Below, one piece after another: positions 2,525 to 18,611 of a stretch of 27,171 bases of DNA. Source of the stretch: a virus; the IMG/VR virus record IMGVR_UViG_3300021185_002301, positions 1-27,171 of that record; one strand, written 5' to 3'. The stretch's first letter is position 1, and each line of letters begins with the position of its first letter. The translations under genes were made by a program, and so were the position numbers. Below the pieces are notes generated by a model, which had not been told where the DNA came from, did no database searches, and saw only the letters and a list, made by a program, of their open reading frames with translations.

Positions 2525-5500
2525 ATGGCAACAGATCACAACTTTCGAATAAAGAATGGCCTCGAAGTAGGCGGCTCATTAATAGTCAATTCATCAGGAC
2601 AGCTCGTAGCTGTTACGGCATCATCTCATATACATTATTTAGATAATGTTCAAGCCAAATTTGGTAATGGTGGTGATTTACAAATTTATCATGATGGCAA
2701 TTATAGTTATATTAAAGAACTTGGTAATGGTGGATTATATTTAGATACTAATGGAGATGGCATATATTTAAGAGGTACTACTGGCAATAAAAATATGGTT
2801 AGAGCCTTAAAAGATGGTGCAGTAACTCTCTACCATAACGGTTCAGCTATATTAGCCACAACATCAGGTGGTGTTGATATTACTAATACTGGTAATAATA
2901 CAGATATAATTTTAACAGAAGGCGGCACAAATACAGATGCCAGAATAAGAAATTCGAATGGTATTCTTGAACTTGACGCAGACCTTAATAATGAATATGG
3001 TAATAGCTCTATTGTATTTAAAGTTGATGGTAGTACAAAGGCTGAAATAGATAGAAATGGTAGATTATATCTAAGTGGAACAACTGCTAACTATCAATCA
3101 AGTGATGGTAATTATCTAAGAAATACTACTGCTTTTGGTTATATACAAATCGGACCAGGTAATGCAGCTCATGCTCACTTCTTAACAGATAGAAGTAATT
3201 TCTATTTTAATAAGCAGATTCAAGTTGATACCGGTATTATTACATCTCACAACGAAGATTTAATTTTAAGAAGAGCTCAAACTTCTGCATCTGGCCAGTT
3301 AACATTAGGAAGAGGTAAATTTGTAGGTGGTTCACAATCTGCTTCTGATCTATTAAATAGTTCAACAATTCTTGGAGGCTTTCATGCTAACACTGCTTTT
3401 GAAGAAGCTTATGGCCATTTTTATATTCCAGGATTATCACCCAACCAATTAGCTGGTTCACATCGTAGACATACAGTTACAGTTACAAAAAACGGAACTA
3501 CACAATCTGGCGATTATTCAAATATGTTCTCAGCAAATGGAGTAAATACTTCATTTTCACATGCTGCAGGATCCACTGATACAATTGTTATTACCATTAC
3601 AGGTATTGCGATGGCTTATGGACAACATGTTGGTGTACAATTTGGTCATCCAACATTTAGAGCAAAAGATATTGAAATAGAAATAACAACTGATAATGGT
3701 TCAAACTGGACATCAATTTATGATGTAACAAACTTTCCTGAGGCCTCTGTAGCGCACTATCACGGAGGTAGTGGTACAGCAACTAACGGAATTAGATATA
3801 CATTTACAAACTTTAACAATACTGGTATGAGAATCAACCAGTTATTCTGTTATGATTACTCAGAAAACGAAATTTATTTTGCAGAAAAAAATCAAGATCA
3901 AACAATAAGAGGTAACTGGACTTGGCCAGATAATTACAAAGCTAAATTTGGAAGTAGTGGTGATTTAGAAATTTGGCATAGTACTAGTGATTCATTTATA
4001 CGAGATGTTGGTACAGGTAATTTATATTTAGATAGTAGTGCCCTTGTTGTCAGAAATTATGCTAATAGTGCCAATATGATAGTAGCAAGTGGTGGTGGAT
4101 CTGTTGCCCTATATCATAATGGTAATATTAAACTTCAAACAGAATCATGGGGCGCTTTAGTAACAGGTACGTTAAATGCTGATTCTCTCCATTTAGGAAG
4201 TGGAGCTAGTGATTTAATTGATGTTCATCAAGATGGAACATTCACAGCAACATATAGAAACAATACAGGTGGTGTTCTCGATAGAAGATACGCAGATTAC
4301 GGCAATGATGGTACAACAGTAGAATTTCAAACAAGAGTTGGAATGGATGGAAACTATTCATCTATTGGTAATTTTAGTAATCACGGTTTACAGATTAGAA
4401 CAAATAATGCGAATAGATTAAATATTTCAAGTACTGGTACTGTTGAAGTTCAAGGTACAGCGCATTTCATTGCTCCAACTATTAGACTTGCAAACGATGC
4501 TACTGATACTACGAAACATAGAGTTGCTGTTTATGATAGTGGTGGAACATCTTATGGTATGATGTTATGGAATAGTAATGTAACTAGCGGTGATTGGGCT
4601 ACAATGATTTATGGTCCAAACCAAGCTAATAGAAGAATATCATTCGGTAAAGTCACTAATAATACATTTAGTAATCATTCACATGTAACTGAAGCAGCCC
4701 ATTTTGACTTAGACACCAATGATTTAATTTTAAATAATGGTACATTATTTGCTACAGGAACAAGTGATGGTGTAGTTGCAAGAAAAGGCGCTTTTGGTCC
4801 AACACAAACAAGTTTACATGGAAGTTATGATTTATATAATAATGGAACAACGTATTTAAATGGTGCTGTAACTGTCGATGATAATTTAGATGTTGCAAAT
4901 AAAATAAGGCATATTGGAGATACAGATACTTATTTAGCTTTTGCTAATGCCAATGATTTCAGAATTGTAGTTGGTAACAGTACAAGAGCAGCATTTAATA
5001 CAAGTAAAATTCATTTTAATCAAGAAGGTATTGACCAAGATTTTCAGGTAGAATCAAATAATTCTACACATATGTTATTTGTTGACGCAGGCCTTGATCG
5101 CGTGGGTATGGGAACAAACTCACCCGAATATCCTCTTCATGTACAAGGTGTAGTTGATGGTGATTTTGGAATTGGAATATTTAACCAAAAAAGTTATGGA
5201 TCAGGAACTGGTGTAAATGAAACTGCAACTTTAACATTAGGTATAAAAGAAAGCGGTCTTGCTGCAGCAAATAGAATATTTGGTCAAATACGAGTAGCAA
5301 CTACTAATGAATCTTCATCTGGTAGTGGCAGAATGTCATTTAACGTAAGAAGCGCTGGTTCTGTAGTGGAAAGGGCTGTTTTAGATAATGGTGGTAATTT
5401 TACTGTTGATGGTACATTGATAGGTTCTAATGTAAATACAGGACAAGGTGCGACAGAAGTACACTTAATGAACCAAAATGTTAGGACTACTGATTCACCT

Positions 5501-8500
5501 ACATTTGCATCATTAACATTAACTGGCGATTTAAATATTACAGGTGATATTAATACAGTTACCGTTAATGATTTAGATGTTCAAGATAAAACAATTACTG
5601 TCGCGGCTGGTGCTGCATCAAGTTCTGCTGCTGATGAAGCGGGTCTTATAATTGGTGGTGCAGGATCAAAAATCCTATGGGATCATGCTGAAGATAAATT
5701 CCAATTCTCTCATGGTATTAATTTCGATAGAGATACTTATTCAGAAACTAACCAAAACTTAGGAATATATTGGTCAGCATGGGATAAAGAATCAGGCGGA
5801 GATCAATCTGATTCTGCATTTATTAGACACACCGAAAATACCGGTGGTCATTCGAATTCAGTATTAGAAATTAAATCAGGCAATGATTCTGGAGATGGTA
5901 TTGCGTTTACTACACATTCCGGTTCTACATTAAAACATAATAGTAGTAATATTCTTACAGCAGCAAACTTTACAAGTAATATTACTAACCTGTTAACAAC
6001 ATCAACCACTTTTGCTGGTGATGTAGACGGAACATATAATAATTTAGTTATCGATGTTCCTACACAAACTTCGGCACCTACAGCTTCTACTGGTAGATTA
6101 TGGTGGGATTCTAATACTGGTAATTTAAAAATCTATAATGGTTCTGTTTGGGTAACTGCTGCAGCAATTCCTGATGTATCAGGTAAATATGATAAAACTG
6201 GTGGTGCTATTACTGGTGCAGTTTCAATGAGTTCTACTCTTGCGGTAACTGGTAATATTACAGGTTCTGCAAATATTCAAGGTAATGCAATTATCAAAAC
6301 AGGTGGAACATCATCGCAATTCTTAAAGGCAGATGGTTCTGTTGATTCTAGTACATATCTTACAGGTAACCAAACAATTACACTAACTGGAGATGTTACT
6401 GGCTCAGGAACAACTTCAATTGCAACTGTTGTTGGCGACGATTCGCATAACCACTCATCTTCATCTGGTAACTTTAGCGTTGGTGGAACATTATTCGTAA
6501 CTCAAAAAATAGAACACACTGGCGATTCAAATACGTATATGGAGTTTAATAGCGGTGATGAGTGGAGAGTTGTAACTGGTGGAACCGAAAGAATACGAAT
6601 TCAAGGAGGCGATATTGGTATAGGCAATGTCGGTCCAACTGATGGTGATTTAACACTTAATAGTCCAAAACTCCACGTTAAAGGTCCTGATACAACTAAC
6701 AAATATAATTTAGTTGCTAGATTCCAGGGCGGTACTGATTCTGATAATACTGGTGGTGCAATATTAATTAACCATTCTAATGATCGTGGTTTATTAATTG
6801 AAGGTGGTCGAAGCAGTTCTGATAGAGGCGTTGGTTATATTGGTCTATTAAACTCAGGCGCAGCTCATACACGTATTATGGGCTTCTATCAAGATGGAAC
6901 AACATATACTGCAGGTATTAATATTGATCCTGGCACATATCCGCATACAGAGTTGCAAGTAGGTAATCCAGAAATAGCATCAACTGGTATTACAATTGCG
7001 TCAAGATACGATGCGAGTGCTGCTAAATTAACATTCAGAACAGGTCATCCAAATAATGCTAATGTTTGGAATACATCACAAATTGCTTCTACAGATGATG
7101 GAAACTACAATGGTAGATTAGAGTTTAGAACATCCGTTTCTGGACAAGCTGCTCCTACCACTCGAATGTTTATTAGAGCGAACGGTAGAGTTGGCATTGG
7201 TAATGGAGTATTTACTCCTGACGCATTATTAGATGTTAACGGTGAATCGAAATATCGCGCAAAACAAGAAACACATGTAGCTGCAGGTAATTATTTTGCA
7301 AATTATATAAACACTACTGAATCTAATTTTAGATTAACAATGTATAACAACGGAACTGGTAATGGTTCTAATCAATACGCATTTAAATTTGGATTACATT
7401 ATGGTACTACTGCTAATGCGAATATTATGTTCTATAGAGGTGGATCTAGTGTAGGTGGATTCTTAGCATTTACTACAAATAATGATACTGAAAGAATGCG
7501 TATTCATAGCGGCGGTGGAATTAGTGTTGGTACTACAACTACTCCTCCTAGCGGTGGAATATTATCAGATAATGATATTAAGACTAATTCGAGGTTTGGT
7601 GTTGGATCTGGAGGTAATTTAACAGATGCTGCAATTTATAAAAATGATGATACTGATACTGGTATTATTTGGCCATCTACAAATGCATTAGCATTTATTA
7701 CTGGAGGCGTTAATAGACTTAATATTGCTTCATCTGGAGAAGTTGAGTTTGACAAACACTTTAAATCACAATCTCAATATTTAAGTGGTGCTACTAACTT
7801 TGATAATTTAAAAGTTTCAGGATTTTATAGTTTATATAATGCAAATGCGTCTGGTCACACAAATGCGCCTTTCCAATATGGCGCGATGATTCAAGCTGGT
7901 AATACAGATGAAGCTGGTGGAATGGGCATGCAAATAGCTCATGAAAGAACTGGTGCTGGTACTTATATCAGAGGTATGAATGATAGTAATGATACTTGGT
8001 ATTCATGGCAAAGAATCTTCATGGATAATTATCATCCAAATGCTGATAAATGGACAACTGCAAGAACACTAACATTAGCTGGTGACTTAACTGGTAATGT
8101 TTCATTCGACGGTTCAGCTAACTTTACACTTACAGCTGCAGTTGTAAGTGATTCACATAACCATACACGCTTTGATGTTAGTGGTATTAGTGATTTAAAT
8201 TCAGTTTCTGGTGCTAATAATACTAGATTTAGACCTTTTGTAAGTAATTTCCAAGCTTCTAATAGATCTGGATCTAATTATAATGGAGGCTTTGAAGTAG
8301 GTACTGGTGCGACTAATTACGGATCTCAGTTTGTATTTGAGGCTAACGCTGCAGCAACTCAACCTAAATTCAGAAATAAAATTAATGGGACATGGGGTGC
8401 ATGGCAAAGTGTATTTGCTGATGGTTATCATCCAAATGCTGATAAATGGACAACGGCTAGAAGTCATACTGTTACTCTTTCAGGAGAAGTTACAGGTACA

Positions 8501-10861
8501 GCTACTCAATCAGTTGACGGTACGGGCAACAAAACATGGTCAATTGCTACAACACTAAATCATTCATCACTTGATGATCAATACTTAATAAAAGATGGTG
8601 CTAATATTCAAGCTTATTCTGCTGGAAGTAACGAGATGTTTAAATGGCAGAATAATACATCTGGCGGTATAATTCAATTAGGATTCCAGCAAAGCGATAC
8701 AGATGGGTTACATCATAGATTGTATCTTAGAGCATATAAAGGAAGTGCCGGTTCATCAGGTAATGTTGATATTATTGTAAGAGGTACTGGTGGTTCAATA
8801 ACAAGTGATGTATTAGAATTGCATTCAGGTCAAAGAGCTGCATGGCAAGGTAATGATATTTTCACTGATGGTTATCATCCAAATGCTGATAAATGGACAA
8901 CGGCTAGAAGTCATACAGTTACTTTAACTGGGGATGTAACTGGTACTGCAACGCAATCTGTAGACGGAACTGGTAACAAGACATGGTCGATTACAACTGC
9001 GGTTGCTGATAATTCACATATTCACGATCACATTCAAGGTGCAAGTGGTACAGCTACAAACTTAAATACGATTGCAAGTCAGGCAAATAGCGGAGAGTTA
9101 CATTATGATTCTTTTTCTACAAGCGCAGCTAATAAGCCTAATACTAGTGATAATGCTAACGGTGTAATAACTGTAGGACAGCACTCTGGACCTTATACAG
9201 CACAACTTGCCTTTTCTTCTGATGGCTTTATGTATCATAGAGATAATCCAAATAATACTTATGGGGGCTGGAACAAAGTTTTTCAGGATAACTACCATCC
9301 AAACGCTGATATATGGACAACTACAAGAACTGATACTGTTACATTAACAGGTGATGCTACTGGTACTTCAACTGTTAATGTAAATGGTAGCGGTAACTGG
9401 ACAAATAGTGTTTCGGTTACTGTTGGTTCTATTGACGGTCAACAATTTTATAATACAAGATCAAACTCAGGACTAAACTCAACTAGTTTAGATGGTAATG
9501 GTATTTTCTATTATACCGCAGGCCCAGGCAACTTTAGTGGAAACTCTACCGATGGTGCAGCTTATATGCAATCATATAGCTCAAGTTGGCAACATACTAT
9601 TCTTGGTGATTATAGATCTGGTGCGATAGCAGTTAAGAGTAGAAATAGCGGAACATGGCAAGAAACAAAAAGAATTCCAATGATTTTCACTGGAAGTACT
9701 ACTCCTACTATTACAACGCATGCCGATAATGCTGAATTATGGTATGATACATCAGATGGAACATTAAAATTTTATTATAATGACGGTACCTCATCACAAT
9801 GGGTAGATGCAGTTGCTGTGCCAAGTATTTCAAACTTATATAGTAAAGGTGGTGGTGCTATTAGTGGCGCTGTTAGTATTGGAAGTACATTAAATGTTAC
9901 CGGAATTACGGAATTAGATAACGAATTATTTGTTGATATTAATGGTGGAGCTAACGGAACTTCAAACCAAGTTGCTAGATTTAGTAATATAACTACAGGC
10001 GCTACTTCTGGATATATTTACTTAGGTGCGAATAGCGGTGGCGACTGGAAAATTGGTAAAAACGTCCCAGGAACTTCATCTAGAACTAATTTTGATATTG
10101 CTTTGCACACTAATGCCTTGGCTATGAGTATTGACGGCAATAAAAATGCGCAATTTTTTGGAACTGAAATCAGTGGGATTACTGGAGGTACTGGAACAGG
10201 CACTACTCACTTAAAAAGAATTGGTGGAATTTATCTTGGATGGGATAATGCAACTTACGGAGTACAAGACTCGCATTCAATTAAATCAACGTATGGCACA
10301 AATTACATTGATAGTATAACAGTTAATTCTTATAATCATATAAGATTTAATATTGATACTAACGGTAATAATACTGATGAAGTTTTCCAGGTTGGTAGAC
10401 ATACAACTGGAACTGGAAACATTTTAATGACACTGGATACCTCAGGTAACTTCTCCACTACTGGTAATGTTACAGCATATTCATCAGATAGAAGATTAAA
10501 GAAAAACTTTAAGAAAATAGATAATGCATTAGATAAAGTATTATCTCTTAACGGATATAACTTTGATTGGAGAATGGACAAACTGGAAGGAACTACATTC
10601 GAGCCGGATTATGAAACTAATGATGTTGGTCTTATTGCTCAAGAAGTTCAAGCGGTATGTGAGCAAGCTACCGGGCCGGCTCCATTTGATATACAATACA
10701 ATGAAGAAACGAAAAAGCTTGAAAGCCAATCAGGCGAAGATTATCTTACAGTGAATTATGATAAGCTGGTGCCATTACTTGTAGAATCAATAAAAGAACA
10801 ACAAACTATTATAAATAAATTAGAACAGAGATTAAGCGATCTCGAAAAAAGAGAGGAATAA
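2525..10861 (+). CDS. Giant tail fibre with C-terminal S74 chaperone domain
   Basis: 2778 residues in one uninterrupted frame. The ATG at 2525 follows a purine-rich ribosome site (cggaga), and the protein opens with MATDHNFRIKNGLEV, a typical N-terminus of marine T4-like fibres. The body has repeated aKFGxxGDLxIxH segments (about residues 45-90 and 475-520), a few VGIG-type motifs, four to five copies of a YHPNADKWTTAR linker preceded by modules resembling pyocin-knob domains (DNA 7784-9330), and HxH motifs at residues 35/37, 1308/1310, 1878/1880 and 2165/2167/2169. The C-terminus is a peptidase S74 intramolecular chaperone. Its probable Ser2654-Lys2659 dyad lies in SSDRRLKK, followed by GLIAQEVQAV and a terminal coiled coil (~2752-2778). 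Known role of the family: the domain drives trimerisation, then cleaves itself off. The fibre likely contacts the receptor at its distal end. The size is extreme for a T4-like fibre. Confidence 0.92.
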   Translation: MATDHNFRIKNGLEVGGSLIVNSSGQLVAVTASSHIHYLDNVQAKFGNGGDLQIYHDGNYSYIKELGNGGLYLDTNGDGIYLRGTTGNKNMVRALKDGAVTLYHNGSAILATTSGGVDITNTGNNTDIILTEGGTNTDARIRNSNGILELDADLNNEYGNSSIVFKVDGSTKAEIDRNGRLYLSGTTANYQSSDGNYLRNTTAFGYIQIGPGNAAHAHFLTDRSNFYFNKQIQVDTGIITSHNEDLILRRAQTSASGQLTLGRGKFVGGSQSASDLLNSSTILGGFHANTAFEEAYGHFYIPGLSPNQLAGSHRRHTVTVTKNGTTQSGDYSNMFSANGVNTSFSHAAGSTDTIVITITGIAMAYGQHVGVQFGHPTFRAKDIEIEITTDNGSNWTSIYDVTNFPEASVAHYHGGSGTATNGIRYTFTNFNNTGMRINQLFCYDYSENEIYFAEKNQDQTIRGNWTWPDNYKAKFGSSGDLEIWHSTSDSFIRDVGTGNLYLDSSALVVRNYANSANMIVASGGGSVALYHNGNIKLQTESWGALVTGTLNADSLHLGSGASDLIDVHQDGTFTATYRNNTGGVLDRRYADYGNDGTTVEFQTRVGMDGNYSSIGNFSNHGLQIRTNNANRLNISSTGTVEVQGTAHFIAPTIRLANDATDTTKHRVAVYDSGGTSYGMMLWNSNVTSGDWATMIYGPNQANRRISFGKVTNNTFSNHSHVTEAAHFDLDTNDLILNNGTLFATGTSDGVVARKGAFGPTQTSLHGSYDLYNNGTTYLNGAVTVDDNLDVANKIRHIGDTDTYLAFANANDFRIVVGNSTRAAFNTSKIHFNQEGIDQDFQVESNNSTHMLFVDAGLDRVGMGTNSPEYPLHVQGVVDGDFGIGIFNQKSYGSGTGVNETATLTLGIKESGLAAANRIFGQIRVATTNESSSGSGRMSFNVRSAGSVVERAVLDNGGNFTVDGTLIGSNVNTGQGATEVHLMNQNVRTTDSPTFASLTLTGDLNITGDINTVTVNDLDVQDKTITVAAGAASSSAADEAGLIIGGAGSKILWDHAEDKFQFSHGINFDRDTYSETNQNLGIYWSAWDKESGGDQSDSAFIRHTENTGGHSNSVLEIKSGNDSGDGIAFTTHSGSTLKHNSSNILTAANFTSNITNLLTTSTTFAGDVDGTYNNLVIDVPTQTSAPTASTGRLWWDSNTGNLKIYNGSVWVTAAAIPDVSGKYDKTGGAITGAVSMSSTLAVTGNITGSANIQGNAIIKTGGTSSQFLKADGSVDSSTYLTGNQTITLTGDVTGSGTTSIATVVGDDSHNHSSSSGNFSVGGTLFVTQKIEHTGDSNTYMEFNSGDEWRVVTGGTERIRIQGGDIGIGNVGPTDGDLTLNSPKLHVKGPDTTNKYNLVARFQGGTDSDNTGGAILINHSNDRGLLIEGGRSSSDRGVGYIGLLNSGAAHTRIMGFYQDGTTYTAGINIDPGTYPHTELQVGNPEIASTGITIASRYDASAAKLTFRTGHPNNANVWNTSQIASTDDGNYNGRLEFRTSVSGQAAPTTRMFIRANGRVGIGNGVFTPDALLDVNGESKYRAKQETHVAAGNYFANYINTTESNFRLTMYNNGTGNGSNQYAFKFGLHYGTTANANIMFYRGGSSVGGFLAFTTNNDTERMRIHSGGGISVGTTTTPPSGGILSDNDIKTNSRFGVGSGGNLTDAAIYKNDDTDTGIIWPSTNALAFITGGVNRLNIASSGEVEFDKHFKSQSQYLSGATNFDNLKVSGFYSLYNANASGHTNAPFQYGAMIQAGNTDEAGGMGMQIAHERTGAGTYIRGMNDSNDTWYSWQRIFMDNYHPNADKWTTARTLTLAGDLTGNVSFDGSANFTLTAAVVSDSHNHTRFDVSGISDLNSVSGANNTRFRPFVSNFQASNRSGSNYNGGFEVGTGATNYGSQFVFEANAAATQPKFRNKINGTWGAWQSVFADGYHPNADKWTTARSHTVTLSGEVTGTATQSVDGTGNKTWSIATTLNHSSLDDQYLIKDGANIQAYSAGSNEMFKWQNNTSGGIIQLGFQQSDTDGLHHRLYLRAYKGSAGSSGNVDIIVRGTGGSITSDVLELHSGQRAAWQGNDIFTDGYHPNADKWTTARSHTVTLTGDVTGTATQSVDGTGNKTWSITTAVADNSHIHDHIQGASGTATNLNTIASQANSGELHYDSFSTSAANKPNTSDNANGVITVGQHSGPYTAQLAFSSDGFMYHRDNPNNTYGGWNKVFQDNYHPNADIWTTTRTDTVTLTGDATGTSTVNVNGSGNWTNSVSVTVGSIDGQQFYNTRSNSGLNSTSLDGNGIFYYTAGPGNFSGNSTDGAAYMQSYSSSWQHTILGDYRSGAIAVKSRNSGTWQETKRIPMIFTGSTTPTITTHADNAELWYDTSDGTLKFYYNDGTSSQWVDAVAVPSISNLYSKGGGAISGAVSIGSTLNVTGITELDNELFVDINGGANGTSNQVARFSNITTGATSGYIYLGANSGGDWKIGKNVPGTSSRTNFDIALHTNALAMSIDGNKNAQFFGTEISGITGGTGTGTTHLKRIGGIYLGWDNATYGVQDSHSIKSTYGTNYIDSITVNSYNHIRFNIDTNGNNTDEVFQVGRHTTGTGNILMTLDTSGNFSTTGNVTAYSSDRRLKKNFKKIDNALDKVLSLNGYNFDWRMDKLEGTTFEPDYETNDVGLIAQEVQAVCEQATGPAPFDIQYNEETKKLESQSGEDYLTVNYDKLVPLLVESIKEQQTIINKLEQRLSDLEKREE
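8418..8469 (+). repeat. 52-bp exact direct repeat, copy 1
   Basis: Identical to 8865-8916, inside the giant fibre gene. It encodes the DGYHPNADKWTTARSH linker. Related diverged copies lie at about 8021-8066 and 9285-9330. The downstream ~80 bases are also similar but diverged at third positions, so this is an old module duplication with a well-kept core. Confidence 0.9.
8865..8916 (+). repeat. 52-bp exact direct repeat, copy 2
   Basis: Second exact copy of 8418-8469, 447 bases downstream and in the same reading frame (447 = 149 codons). Recombination between the copies would remove a 149-residue module in frame. Confidence 0.9.
10481..10861 (+). other. Peptidase S74 (intramolecular chaperone) domain of the giant fibre
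   Basis: Codons 2653-2778. The SSDRRLKK segment supplies Ser2654 and Lys2659 with the five-residue spacing of the autocleavage dyad seen in endosialidase-type chaperones. GLIAQEVQ and a V-N-Y-D-K-L-V-P-L-L segment follow, both typical of the family, then a C-terminal coiled coil. Cleavage is expected just before the serine, leaving a mature fibre of about 2650 residues. Confidence 0.88.
10810..10817 (+). promoter_or_regulatory. Possible late promoter inside the 3' end of the giant fibre gene
   Basis: Exact TATAAATA, 47 bases before the ATG of the next gene, within the coding sequence of the coiled-coil tail. Position and strand suit transcription of the 10864-13223 genes, but AT-rich codons could produce it by chance. 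Confidence 0.4.
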
Positions 10862-13776: not shown

Positions 13777-14493
13777 ATGAAGAATGAAGATATATATGAT
13801 TTAGTTGAACACCACGGGACATTTTCGCAATCAGAATTTCAGTCAAGATATTTTGTTGTAAATTCCCATGTAACCAATTATAGAAGAATTAGACAAGCAT
13901 TATTAGAAATTGAAGCACGAGTTCAATCTAAAAGACAGATTGAAAGAAGTGTAAAAAGAGAAGAAGCGCAATTGGCTATTCATCAAAGAAATTTTGATAA
14001 TGAAACTGATGAACTTGAAAAGAACTTAATAGCATGTGATGTTGATCAATCAAAATACGATTTAAACGTATATCAAAAAAGATTAAGACAAACTGAACAA
14101 GAACTAGAAACTTATGCAGAGATTGTAAAAGAATTAGTTCCTGATATGGATAAACTTATCGAAATGAATAAGGAAAATCCAGAAGAGGAAAGAAGATATT
14201 GGATCGCTCGTATGGGAAAACAGGCTGCAATGGATCTTATGACTATTGGAAAAATAGGTCAAGGTAATATGGACTCTATTGCAATGATGTCTCTTGGAGA
14301 TCAAGAGCAAACCGTAAAAGTAGCTTTAAAATATAATGCAGTTATGAATAAAGGTATTGCCAGTTTGGAGCAAAAGGCGCTTGATGAATTGCAGTTGTCA
14401 TACGATCCAACAAATGAAGTAGATTATATTGATAAATTATTAGAACATAGTGACATGATTGAAGATAAAAAAATAAATGGCGAAAGTATTTAG
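13777..14493 (+). CDS. Coiled-coil protein of unknown function
   Basis: 238 residues. An N-terminal segment of about 40 residues (EHHGTFSQSEFQSRYFVVNSH) precedes a long charged helical region (about 40-130) with heptad-like leucines and glutamates, consistent with a coiled coil, and a less charged helical C-terminal part (about 140-238). The function is not recognised. By position it is probably a structural or assembly protein of the fibre/baseplate module. Its last 17 bases overlap the start of the next gene, which suggests translational coupling across the boundary between the structural block and the enzyme/membrane cassette. Confidence 0.78.
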   Translation: MKNEDIYDLVEHHGTFSQSEFQSRYFVVNSHVTNYRRIRQALLEIEARVQSKRQIERSVKREEAQLAIHQRNFDNETDELEKNLIACDVDQSKYDLNVYQKRLRQTEQELETYAEIVKELVPDMDKLIEMNKENPEEERRYWIARMGKQAAMDLMTIGKIGQGNMDSIAMMSLGDQEQTVKVALKYNAVMNKGIASLEQKALDELQLSYDPTNEVDYIDKLLEHSDMIEDKKINGESI

Positions 14494-16114
14494 TGTACCG
14501 CTTAATCCAAAGCTAAGCGAACAAGATTATAATAAATTCCTAGAGTTCTTATCAGAGTATAAGGACTATATCTATGACGTGTATTTTACTTCTAGGATTC
14601 CACCATTTAATCAAGATGCTATGGGAGATGTTTTTGCTTCGACCAATGATTCACAGTATTTAGTAGAAGCTGCGTTAAACATTCAAAATAATATAGGAAT
14701 TCCTATATCAGCAACATTTAATAATATTGAGGTAAGACCAGATCAACAAAACTTAGATTTGTGGATAAAAAATTATAAACCATTGTATGATGCTGGAATA
14801 TATAATGTAACTTTACCACATACTCATTGGATGATGACTGGCCAAGTAAAGAAAAACTTTCCAAAGCTTTTTGTTAAAAACACAATTCTTAGGCAAGTTA
14901 CTGAAGCAAGAGATGTCGCCAAACTTGCCGAGGCTGGTTTTGACTATGTAAACCTTGATAGAGTATTAATGCGCGATCATGATAGAATAAAGGAAATAGC
15001 AAAAGTAAAAGAAAAATATAATGTAAAATTATCTTTATTGGCAAATGAAGGTTGTATTGGTGGTTGTGCTGTAATGCCAGAACATTTTCAATTTAATAAT
15101 ACAAGGGCACAGGGCCCTCAATATTTTGCAGACCCTATTAGTAGAGTATCTTGCCCAAAATGGGATACAGAAGATATAGCAGTAAATTTAAAAACTGCAA
15201 ACTTTACTCCATGGAGAGAGGATTGGCTCGAGTTATTGGATATTGGTATTGATACTATTAAAATGCACGGTAGAGAATCGGTATCAAGATTATGGGAAAC
15301 TGTAGATATTATAAAAAGATTCGCTAATAAAGATGACATATTATTCGATACATTTAATGAATATTTAGAAGAAACAAATATGGAAGGCCGGCCAATAGAT
15401 GGTTGGCGCAAAATTATTAAAACGTGTAAATTTGATTGTTGGGATTGTAATTTTTGTGATAAAGTGTGGAAGGCAAAGGGAAATTCAAATAATAATAAAG
15501 TGGAAAGAGTTGCACAAGCACTAATAGACTGCGTCAATACTGATATAGATATTGATATCGATGGATTGTCGAGCAAAAGAACACAAGGGCTGTTAAACAT
15601 ATTAGGCGGAATGTCGACACATTATTTAGAAGTTGGTGTATTGACAGGATCTACTTTTTGTGCTGCTATAAATAATAATGATATTACTGCTTATGCTGTG
15701 GATCATTTTAGAGATAACACGCAGGCTGTAACTGGTTCTGATATAAACAGTAGTAAACAAACCTTTATAGAAAATGTAAAAAAATATAAAGGAAAGAATT
15801 CAATTCATCTTTTTGATTGTGATTTTAGAAAGGTGAATTTGGATAAAATAGAAAAGATTGATTTAATGTTTTATGATGCGGATCATGATCCAAAATCAAA
15901 CATTGATTCGCTTGTCTATTTTAAAGATAAATTAGCTGATGAGAGTATAATAATATTTGATGATGCTAATTTTGATGAAGTTGTAGATAGTGTGAGGGAA
16001 GGCATGAATCTTGCTAGATTAAATATTATCTATGAAAAAGTGATATTGAATGATATAGAAGATCCGGACCAATGGTGGAACGGGTTATATATTATGGTAA
16101 TAAAAAAGGATTAA
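14477..16114 (+). CDS. Fusion: U32-peptidase-like Fe-S domain + SAM-dependent methyltransferase
   Basis: 545 residues in two parts. Residues ~1-330 look like a TIM-barrel protein of the U32 peptidase-like group: LLANEGCIGGCAVMPEHFQF (188-206) is close to the family's NEGC..C....HF signature. C193, C197 and C226 plus one of C317/C321/C324/C327 could hold the [4Fe-4S] cluster known in U32 members such as UbiU/UbiV and TrhP. Residues 353-364 form an Asp/Ile linker (TDIDIDIDIDG). Residues ~370-545 are a class I methyltransferase (Methyltransf_24-like): SAM motif LEVGVLTGST (384-393), acidic VDHF (408-411), FYDADHD (465-471) and IIIFDDANF (491-499). Substrate unknown; sugar or small-molecule modification is plausible. 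The start overlaps the upstream gene by 17 bases and its ribosome site is weak, suggesting coupling. Good evidence for both domains, none for the substrate. Confidence 0.82.
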   Translation: MAKVFSVPLNPKLSEQDYNKFLEFLSEYKDYIYDVYFTSRIPPFNQDAMGDVFASTNDSQYLVEAALNIQNNIGIPISATFNNIEVRPDQQNLDLWIKNYKPLYDAGIYNVTLPHTHWMMTGQVKKNFPKLFVKNTILRQVTEARDVAKLAEAGFDYVNLDRVLMRDHDRIKEIAKVKEKYNVKLSLLANEGCIGGCAVMPEHFQFNNTRAQGPQYFADPISRVSCPKWDTEDIAVNLKTANFTPWREDWLELLDIGIDTIKMHGRESVSRLWETVDIIKRFANKDDILFDTFNEYLEETNMEGRPIDGWRKIIKTCKFDCWDCNFCDKVWKAKGNSNNNKVERVAQALIDCVNTDIDIDIDGLSSKRTQGLLNILGGMSTHYLEVGVLTGSTFCAAINNNDITAYAVDHFRDNTQAVTGSDINSSKQTFIENVKKYKGKNSIHLFDCDFRKVNLDKIEKIDLMFYDADHDPKSNIDSLVYFKDKLADESIIIFDDANFDEVVDSVREGMNLARLNIIYEKVILNDIEDPDQWWNGLYIMVIKKD

Positions 16115-16117
16115 ATT

Positions 16118-17143
16118 ATGTTAAACTTATTAGATGGCTTAGGCTATCTATGGATGATTATATTCATCATGATTAGTGCGGGACTAGCAAAGGAACACGA
16201 TCTTTTTGCCCCTGCATATGCTTATGTAAGAAATGTATTCCGTTCAAATAAGTTTGTTTTAGTAATACTGAGTGCGATAGGCGGTGTTCTACCAATCTCA
16301 GGAAGAGTTACTGTATCTGCTGGTCTGTTAGATACATTAGCTCCAAAAAGTGGACCAGGCAGAGAAAAATTAGGAATAATTGATTATTTAGCGACTCATC
16401 ACTATTATATGTGGTCACCGTTAGAAAAAACAGTCATTTTGCCTATTGCTGCATTTGGTTTAACTTATACTGCATGGCTAGGAATCGTCTGGCCAATTCT
16501 CATTTCTTCTTTTCTTTTTATTGGCTGGTATGTATGGAGCCAAGTAAAAGAAGACGAAGTTGCAATTAAACCGACAAATTTTAACATGCCTTCTGTTGTG
16601 AGGAATGTGTTCCCTATGATCATAGCGATTGCAGGTTACATTAAAACATCAGATTATGTTTTATGTTTTGGTTTACTGTCATTGTATTATATTATATTGA
16701 CAGCAACATGGGATATTAAAAAGTTAATTAATTATGTAAATTTTGAATTACTTTTTACAGTAGCATTTGTAATAATACTAAGCAATTATTTAAAATCTCA
16801 TGAAGATAGTATTCAGACATTCGTGACTGATGCAATGTTAGATCCAACAACTTTAGTTGGAATAACGCTAATATCTTTGTTAGGATTTACGGGAAGTTTT
16901 ATAATGGGTAGTAGTGGAAAATTTATTGCTTTAGCTGTACTTATGTCGCAGGTATTTGGTATAGAATATTTTCTTTGGTTTTTTGCCTTAGAATATTCTG
17001 CATATCTTTGTAGTCCTATGCATAAGTGTTTAGTTATTGGCCGTGGATATTTTAATACTCCGTTAATAATGTATTACAAAGCTTTGACCATGTGGATTAT
17101 AATTTTATTGGTGTCAAGCGGCATCGCAACTTTTGCAATATAG
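16118..17143 (+). CDS. Polytopic inner-membrane protein, DUF401-like permease
   Basis: 341 residues with about nine to ten hydrophobic helices (roughly 5-23, 45-62, 103-140 as two, 160-195 as two, 209-225, 246-292 as two, 322-341). GGVLPISGRVTVSAG (55-69) and the late SPMHKCLVIGRGYF (299-312) resemble, from memory, conserved parts of the DUF401 membrane family, which belongs to the ion-transporter clan with citrate and arsenite carriers. The late segment matches that family's LSPxHLCLVLTxxYF pattern. The role inferred is transport of an ion or small anion across the inner membrane of the infected cell. The ribosome site aagga lies just upstream, three bases after the methyltransferase stop. 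It is followed, 10 bases on, by a secreted outer-membrane-like protein. Not a holin: far too many helices. Family assignment moderate, substrate unknown. Confidence 0.72.
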   Translation: MLNLLDGLGYLWMIIFIMISAGLAKEHDLFAPAYAYVRNVFRSNKFVLVILSAIGGVLPISGRVTVSAGLLDTLAPKSGPGREKLGIIDYLATHHYYMWSPLEKTVILPIAAFGLTYTAWLGIVWPILISSFLFIGWYVWSQVKEDEVAIKPTNFNMPSVVRNVFPMIIAIAGYIKTSDYVLCFGLLSLYYIILTATWDIKKLINYVNFELLFTVAFVIILSNYLKSHEDSIQTFVTDAMLDPTTLVGITLISLLGFTGSFIMGSSGKFIALAVLMSQVFGIEYFLWFFALEYSAYLCSPMHKCLVIGRGYFNTPLIMYYKALTMWIIILLVSSGIATFAI

Positions 17144-17153
17144 GAGAAAAAAT

Positions 17154-17987
17154 ATGCAATATTTATTAACATTTATTATGGGGCTATTTTTGGTCTTTCC
17201 AGCATTTGCTGAAGAGGTTGAAAAAGAGGAAGAAGACGTTATTGAAGAGGTAGTAGTTGTATCAACTGGCTTACCGCAATTCGCAACTGTCGGTGAAAAC
17301 AATCAACCGGTCTGGACTTTAACGAGGAAATTTCCGGCTACAAGGTCATATATTATGGTTCCAGATGGAGAAGTAATGTATGAGAAATGGTTTGATGTAA
17401 GAGATAGAAGGGACGGCCCTGCTCAAATTAGAATGAGAGATGAAATTGCTCTTGGTCTAGGTGGAAGATGGGAACTTGATCTTTATGCTCATACGGTATA
17501 TGATGGACCACAATACGATCAACGATTTGAATGGCGTGGGTTTAGTTGGGAAGTAAGATATGCTTTAGCAGAATGGGGTGAATTATGGGGAAATCCAACA
17601 CTTTATTTCGAGCATAAGCTAAAACAAGGTAAGCAAGGAATTGAACCAAAACTATTACTTAGTGACAGATTCGGACAGTCTAGTTATATATGGGGATTGA
17701 ATTTAATTTATGAAGCAAATATAGCAGAAACTAAAGAGGAAGAAGAAAGAGAATACGCTGCAACATACAGTGTAGGTAAAGTTTTTAGTAATAAAATGAC
17801 TGCTGGTATATCGACAATGTATCGATATAATGATTTTGATGGAGGTTCTACAGAACTTTATATGGGCCCAACGTTTCATTATAGATTTAATGATAGAGCA
17901 CATATTAGTTTTGAGTACATGCCAAATCTTAGAGACAAAGATGGTTACAAATCAAGAAGTCATTTAATTTTTGCTTGGAGGTTTTAG
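17154..17987 (+). CDS. Secreted protein, predicted outer-membrane beta-barrel
   Basis: 277 residues from the ATG at 17154, which has a clear taggaga ribosome site 8-13 bases upstream; an upstream in-frame TTG at 17133 lies inside the previous gene and lacks such a site. Residues 1-19 are a signal peptide (hydrophobic core, FAFA-like end before EE). Residues 20-38 are acidic then valine-rich (DVIEEVVVVSTG), resembling a TonB box. From about residue 92 the sequence shows ten or more short amphipathic strands with alternating aromatic/aliphatic residues, separated by G/D/N turns, and it ends in WRF. A C-terminal Phe is the usual outer-membrane insertion signal. The role inferred is a pore, receptor-masking or transport protein placed in the host outer membrane. 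At 277 residues it is too short for a full TonB-dependent receptor. Family not recognised. Confidence 0.8.
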   Translation: MQYLLTFIMGLFLVFPAFAEEVEKEEEDVIEEVVVVSTGLPQFATVGENNQPVWTLTRKFPATRSYIMVPDGEVMYEKWFDVRDRRDGPAQIRMRDEIALGLGGRWELDLYAHTVYDGPQYDQRFEWRGFSWEVRYALAEWGELWGNPTLYFEHKLKQGKQGIEPKLLLSDRFGQSSYIWGLNLIYEANIAETKEEEEREYAATYSVGKVFSNKMTAGISTMYRYNDFDGGSTELYMGPTFHYRFNDRAHISFEYMPNLRDKDGYKSRSHLIFAWRF

Positions 17988-18611
17988 TTGTTTAGATTTG
18001 ATAATTTTGATGTAGTTCCGCTGTTTTCTTCTCCGTTAGGGATAACGCAAATACAAGAAGACATGACTGCACTAAATAAAATTAAATCTATTAACTATAG
18101 TATAACGAATGATTCTGGAAGTCAAATTTCAGAATCATCTCGTATATTACACGAATTCCCTATCGAAAAAAATATTATAATGAAATATTTTAATGACTAT
18201 AAAAATAAGATATTTCGATATGATAATACGGAATTTAATCTTTATTCCTCATGGGCTACAAAATGTCAAAGGGGCCAAGGTTCTGACGTGCATAATCATA
18301 CTAATTCTATGTTTAGTGCAGTGTATTACTTAGACACGGTAGAAGATAAAGATGGGGGATCCTTAGAATTTAACAATATTGGAATCAACCAGTCAGGCCA
18401 CAATGTAGTTTCTGCAGAGATGAATTCTTTTAATAGTGATTGCTTTACAGTACAGCCAGGAAAAAACGTAATAGTGTTTTTCCCTAGTTATATTTTTCAT
18501 AAAATTAATAGATATACGGGACTTGATGATAGATATTCTATTGCGATGAATTTTATGCCCAGTGGAAAAATAGGTTATGGTGACTCAAGTCTGGAGTTAA
18601 AAATCGTATAA
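17988..18611 (+). CDS. 2OG-Fe(II) oxygenase-like protein
   Basis: 207 residues, starting at TTG 17988 immediately after the stop of the previous gene; ggagg at 17977-17981 supports this start. The fold signature is that of the short phage 2OG-Fe(II) oxygenases: H102-N-H104 in DVHNHTNSMFSAVYYLD, distal H171 in FFPSYIFHKINRY, and R182 in DDRYSIAMNF for 2-oxoglutarate binding. The metal triad would be H102/H104/H171 or an equivalent. This is a His in place of the usual Asp, as seen in some members of this group. The family hydroxylates proteins or small molecules; such genes are frequent in marine T4-like phages and their substrates are unknown. The stop codon is embedded in the gp13 late promoter. 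Well supported as a family, unknown target. Confidence 0.82.
   Translation: MFRFDNFDVVPLFSSPLGITQIQEDMTALNKIKSINYSITNDSGSQISESSRILHEFPIEKNIIMKYFNDYKNKIFRYDNTEFNLYSSWATKCQRGQGSDVHNHTNSMFSAVYYLDTVEDKDGGSLEFNNIGINQSGHNVVSAEMNSFNSDCFTVQPGKNVIVFFPSYIFHKINRYTGLDDRYSIAMNFMPSGKIGYGDSSLELKIV

Follow-up and report, generated by a model that had tools for sequence, protein, structure and literature searches.

What could a T4-like virus gain from carrying, in the middle of its structural genes, a gene for an inner-membrane permease followed directly by one for an outer-membrane barrel? The question arises from part of the genome of an uncultivated virus, a 27-kb piece analyzed here over its whole length of 27,171 nucleotides (the window). 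The two open reading frames lie on the plus strand within a T4-like structural gene cluster, with tail fibre genes upstream and genes for the head-tail adaptor, neck, tail sheath stabiliser, terminase, sheath, tube, and portal downstream. The nearest annotated portal genes were those of phage C48C1 (60.8% identity) and of T4-like cyanophages (58–59%). One tail-fibre-like protein in the window is very large (2525–10861, 2778 amino acids), and its C-terminus is that of a long-tail-fibre distal subunit (phrog_11011). A T4-type late-promoter-like sequence, TATAAATA, was found immediately 5' of several structural genes (18607, 23103, 25394, and 26962); the window contained 10 matches vs 5.9 expected, so that an excess over chance is not clear, and none was seen immediately 5' of the pair.

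The coordinates of the pair and its surroundings are collected in the table. The gap of 10 bases between the two genes, given in a first-pass annotation of this DNA, is exact: an AGGAG core at 17142–17146 places the start of the barrel gene at the ATG in position 17154. The TTG at 17133 proposed by a mechanical ORF list is not needed. A counterpart of the gene upstream of the permease recurs in the same place in several distant lineages (L016, L025, L042, L050, L056, and L070), and the cysteine cluster of its product is a possible Fe-S site. We do not claim this gene, or the oxygenase gene downstream of the barrel gene, as part of a transporter.

Features of the permease–barrel pair and its neighbours (window coordinates unless a locus is named)
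Feature	Position	Strand	Basis or remark
TIM-barrel-like N-terminus with Cys cluster + Methyltransf_24, phrog_1458	14477..16114	+	conserved upstream neighbour
DUF401 inner-membrane permease, 341 aa	16118..17143 (stop included)	+	PF04165, phrog_14035, AlphaFold2 model, fold match
Ribosome-binding site AGGAGA, sharing bases with the DUF401 stop codon	17142..17147	+	read from the sequence
Predicted outer-membrane 12-strand beta-barrel with putative TonB box, 277 aa	17154..17987	+	AlphaFold2 model, FapF match, alignment of 23 relatives
Signal peptide MQYLLTFIMGLFLVFPAFA, residues 1–19	17154..17210	+	read from the translation
TonB-box-like motif IEEVVVVS, residues 30–37	17241..17264	+	equivalent place in 23/23 relatives
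Ordered stretch after the TonB box and before strand 1, residues 41–60	17274..17333	+	block pLDDT 84–89
Twelve predicted transmembrane strands, residues 74–276	17373..17981	+	AlphaFold2, block pLDDT 91–97
2OG-Fe(II) oxygenase	17988..18611	+	PF13759, 4.8e-17; directly downstream of the barrel gene
DUF401–barrel in-frame fusions	L050:5191-6813, L052:1-1203, L054:920-2554		three contigs, three metagenomes (L050/L053, L052, L054)

The DUF401-like landmarks noticed in the first protein at first pass were borne out by profile searches, in which residues 14–336 matched PF04165 with 46.9 bits (3.3e-12), above the Pfam gathering cut-off of 24. The protein also matched phrog_14035, a family of unknown function (4.7e-75). 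Against NCBIfam TIGR00529 it scored 54 bits and did not reach the equivalog cut-off of 378.4; it is related to TIGR00529 and is a different equivalog. The AlphaFold2 model, for which 29 relatives were used (pLDDT 87.1), displayed the ion-transporter fold that had been anticipated. It aligned along its full length with NaDC1 (VIA Z 23.6, 334 residues, rmsd 4.2), followed by LaINDY (Z 23.2), AtDiT1 (22.9), NaS1 (22.4), and Pho90 (22.2); the NaDC1 and LaINDY alignments covered 334–337 residues. The efflux carrier ArsB, of the same superfamily, was also among the structural matches (Z 13.8). Foldseek alone gave weak E-values (best 7e-4), and no sequence match to a solved structure was found. Thus, the DASS/INDY-type elevator anion-transporter fold is predicted for the permease at the level of the fold, and we claim no family membership.

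The permease resembles the DASS anion transporters (LaINDY, NaDC1, NaS1, and Pho90) in its full-length fold (Z 21–24) and differs from them in lacking the SNT substrate/sodium motifs as well as sequence matches to any solved structure. Its conserved loops carry WSPLEK, MGSSGK, and SPMHK, and the alignment of relatives showed invariant residues in loop motifs including GRV, HHYYxWSPxEK, GSSxK, and SPxHKC. Loops so rich in invariant Ser, Lys, His, and Arg would suit an anion. Both the DUF401 relatives and the barrel relatives are under purifying selection (NG86 dN/dS approximately 0.07–0.13 where dS could be computed). One scan with the DUF401 profile matched 493 viral contig stretches, and cyanophage relatives shared 33–35% identity with the window protein. 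When the DUF401 alignment was run against 84,980 species genomes, no bacterial relatives were detected at the sensitivity of the method, and there was no match in annotated plasmids.

The second protein had been described at first pass as secreted, with alternating strands and a C-terminal Phe, and expected to form a closed barrel. All of this agrees with our results: a signal peptide is present, the last residue is Phe, and AlphaFold2 predicted a closed barrel of 12 strands with high confidence. The best structural match was FapF (Z 22.4, 221 residues aligned, rmsd 2.6) and the second was COG4313 (4rl8, Z 20.7); the KdgM/NanC porins also matched in fold. Against PF13557 (Phenol_MetA_deg), the family of the FapF/COG4313 barrels, the window protein scored 17.7 bits and its relative in L069 a borderline 21.9 bits, the cut-off being 22. 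No relatives were detected in annotated phages, nor, at the sensitivity of the method, in the 84,980 bacterial species genomes.

In FapF, a 13-residue helix (A89-G101) plugs a pore of 12 strands (PMC5557850). The window barrel has the same number of strands and a similar length, and in the alignment of the two a short N-terminal segment falls at the place of the FapF plug: the alignment opens at model residue 40, corresponding to FapF residue 88, beside the plug helix. Residues 41–60 are ordered in the model and include a four-residue helix at 53–56; this segment is a possible miniature plug. By contrast, residues 18–37 had pLDDT values below 50, and the N-terminal stretch holding the TonB-box motif is probably flexible. 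Unlike FapF (approximately 13% identity), the barrel has a TonB-box motif in place, is phage-borne, and is paired with a permease, and it is devoid of the N-terminal periplasmic coiled coil, as only about 20–45 residues of low pLDDT precede the barrel segment.

Since the nearest fold is that of a secretion pore, the pair might form an export route in which a metabolite or ion, pumped out by DUF401, leaves the cell through the FapF-like barrel. ArsB among the permease matches would fit such a role, and a TonB-dependent transporter of Myxococcus is reported as required for protein secretion (PMC6434023). We nevertheless consider export quite unlikely, because the large periplasmic coiled coil of FapF has no counterpart within the 277 residues and because sister phages have a protein of the siderophore-receptor type in this position (see below). 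It is also relevant that TonB boxes usually mark import.

The textbook TonB box reads DTxxVTA, and the motif in the window barrel resembles it. The pattern [LIVM]xx[VF]x[VI][TSVEA] was found right after the signal peptide in all 23 barrel relatives (for example KLNEVVVTAKK, QLDTFTVTGKR, and ELKEVQVTAKR), and it occurred in only 3.4% of shuffled 50-residue stretches. These sequences span 51–76% identity to the window barrel, and the motif is kept within a stretch that is otherwise variable. We infer that it is a TonB box through which the barrel may be coupled to the host TonB. In the position of the motif straight after the signal peptide, the barrel is like the TonB-dependent transporters FhuA and FetA. 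It is not a classical member of that group, however, because it has 277 residues rather than roughly 600–750, 12 strands rather than 22, and no match to the Plug domain PF07715 (none at E ≤ 1 in the window barrel, its relatives in L015 and L046, or the L050 fusion). The possibility that the phage brings its own TonB received no support, since no TonB gene was found in the ten phage records searched, most of which were fragments; host TonB would thus be needed.

Alternatively, the barrel could be an ordinary porin with a fortuitous motif, so that DUF401 alone would drive a passive uptake of anions. The fold similarity to COG4313 and the KdgM/NanC porins is consistent with this, as is the finding that small barrels without the motif (0/9) occupy the same slot, which also means that TonB coupling is not general to the DUF401 neighbourhood. 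Retention of the motif in 23 of 23 diverged sequences, right after the signal peptide, is difficult to reconcile with such a reading, which we regard as improbable.

The first-pass annotation had suggested a survey of whether the two genes stay adjacent in other phages, and took routine separation as evidence against a functional pair. A barrel profile search found 49 viral loci, and 50 barrel loci, falling into 21 clusters at 90% identity, were then examined. DUF401 was directly adjacent in 46 of them and the other four stop at a contig edge. The barrel came first in 25 loci, where the gene ends usually overlap, and DUF401 in 21. In loci of the barrel-first group, leaders such as FAQYTGRALNNG gave the impression of being Bacteroidota-like. 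For the barrel, separation was thus never seen where the contig allowed a view.

In addition, the two proteins were found fused in frame. At the joint, the last DUF401 helix ends in AKA|DVIEEV or VNA|EEKEQIIEEV, that is, in an AxA-type, signal-peptidase-like site with the TonB box immediately behind it; signal peptidase could therefore free the barrel from the fused DUF401. Misassembly is an unlikely cause of the fusions, as the frame is open on three contigs from three metagenomes, of which L052 and L054 are near-identical and form one cluster. About 40 central residues of the window DUF401, comprising two predicted helices, are missing from the L050 and L054 fusions and from the unfused L055.

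For DUF401 itself the outcome of the survey was mixed. Among loci found by the DUF401 query alone (46 loci, 23 clusters), a downstream neighbour resembling an outer-membrane protein was present in 11 of 23 lineages vs 2 of 296 other nearby genes (p = 1.3e-12). The rule used, a signal peptide plus a C-terminal aromatic residue, is crude and missed a DUF2490-like case; a recognised outer-membrane family adjoined DUF401 in 15 of the 23 clusters. The adjacency is beyond chance. In a manual count based on the best 80 of the 493 DUF401 stretches and a few earlier loci, at least one outer-membrane neighbour was present in 21 of 38 non-edge clusters and none was adjacent in 17, nor was a barrel adjacent at the cyanophage loci examined. 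The notion that DUF401 is always paired was thus discarded, as something else (Hsp20, DnaK, Dps, or tail genes) lies next to it in about half of the lineages, and the protein can function by itself or with porins of the host. Pairing is frequent yet not obligatory for DUF401 and, as far as seen, obligatory for this barrel.

Some of these other neighbours are recognisable. A gene for a full-length phage DnaK (HSP70, E 2e-260) was found at L095:5995-7881 and also in L008, L009, and L046, directly after DUF401 or two genes after it, and Hsp20 takes a similar position in L006 and L007 and, by inspection, in L143, L154, and L197. A Dps/ferritin-like gene (PF00210, 3.4e-22) comes next in the L010/L011 lineage (L010:8041-8478), with equivalents in L011, L012, L015, L017, L019, L020, L022, L026, and L030; it is a frequent follower, lying next to the pair or, if there is no barrel, immediately after DUF401.

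The slot beside DUF401 is filled by at least six kinds of outer-membrane protein: (i) the 12-strand barrel with the TonB-box motif, as in the window; (ii) a small porin-like barrel of 185–211 residues, adjacent to DUF401 in 24 of 26 loci, the two exceptions (L127 and L128) being one lineage; (iii) a 717-residue TonB-dependent siderophore receptor in L034/L035/L038, with Plug and TonB barrel Pfam matches and a TIGR01783 match of 2.4e-58 that is below the model's own cut-off, and related to the enantio-pyochelin receptor and FhuA; (iv) a receptor-like protein of 585 residues that has a weak Plug score (best 0.0013) and a TonB-box-like motif; (v) a DUF2490-like barrel; and (vi) a Gcw_chp barrel (4.1e-50). 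The small barrels without DUF401 lie at L127:550-1110 and L128:1653-2213, with a cell-wall-hydrolase-like gene nearby. The idea that all neighbouring barrels are one family received no support, as hhalign of the 12-strand barrels (A3) against A5 gave only 20.8% probability over 46 columns. In the loci L010 and L011 (around 6001–8837), the flanking genes agree in their size and in how their sequences start, while the outer-membrane protein is a different one, and this site is a swapping hot spot for either the 12-strand barrel or the 585-residue protein.

Such swapping between related phages could reflect an arms race at the cell surface. The barrel might mask or replace a phage receptor, or its TonB box might sequester TonB against TonB-dependent phages and bacteriocins, with DUF401 a mere neighbour; outer-membrane barrels are common in phages, many being present in BFVD. 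The constant adjacency of barrel and DUF401 in two gene orders and in fusions argues for a joint function instead, and we find envelope remodelling or superinfection exclusion unlikely. Of the two readings offered at first pass, uptake or efflux by the pair and a block of superinfection, the former is favoured and the latter less so, owing to the conserved partner with a predicted anion-transporter fold, the TonB box, and the siderophore receptor in the slot of sister phages.

The reading that we prefer, and hold to be probable, is that the pair provides a phage-encoded import route across the envelope for a scarce anionic solute, driven by host TonB. The barrel would fold in the host outer membrane, where TonB-ExbBD would engage its N-terminal TonB box and pull a short stretch of the N-terminus clear of the pore. 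The solute would then pass into the periplasm, and DUF401, as an elevator transporter of the DASS/INDY fold, would carry it on into the cytoplasm. Import fits best because TonB acts on outer-membrane importers, a siderophore receptor occurs in the slot, and carriers of the DASS fold move anions. Against an import pair stand the DUF401 lineages and cyanophages with no adjacent outer-membrane protein, and the small barrels without a TonB box. The likeliest single substrate is perhaps iron as a carboxylate (citrate-type) chelate, which is the weakest step of the proposal: iron is suggested by the siderophore receptor and Dps of sister phages, that is, of lineages other than that of the window. 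Phosphate, sulfate, and organic acids are alternatives, and with respect to the predicted DUF401 fold, phosphate, sulfate, and dicarboxylates would be equally compatible.

The pair shares with phage auxiliary transport genes and phage outer-membrane barrels that it consists of phage-borne membrane proteins, and it differs from them in that inner- and outer-membrane partners are kept as a unit. The open-access literature searched, with incomplete coverage, contained no description of a phage pair of a TonB-box 12-strand barrel and DUF401, nor of any phage-borne inner/outer-membrane transport pair. Phage outer-membrane barrels as such are already known; there is a fair chance that this one is new as a minimal class of TonB-coupled importer. 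More tentatively, the barrel could be an undescribed importer class of 12 strands, TonB box, and tiny plug, acting with its dedicated DUF401 in a self-contained two-membrane system, with phages swapping the barrel to suit the available chelate or nutrient.

The pair occurs in many water-dwelling phages and looks like a virus-built nutrient route across both membranes. If this is true, lytic phages would install their own path for nutrients, going beyond the re-tuning of host metabolism, and TonB would be shown to drive barrels much smaller than its classical receptors. The pair would also give a first functional lead for the phage DUF401 proteins and, for natural waters, a concrete, testable case in which phages drive the uptake of a nutrient in short supply, possibly iron.
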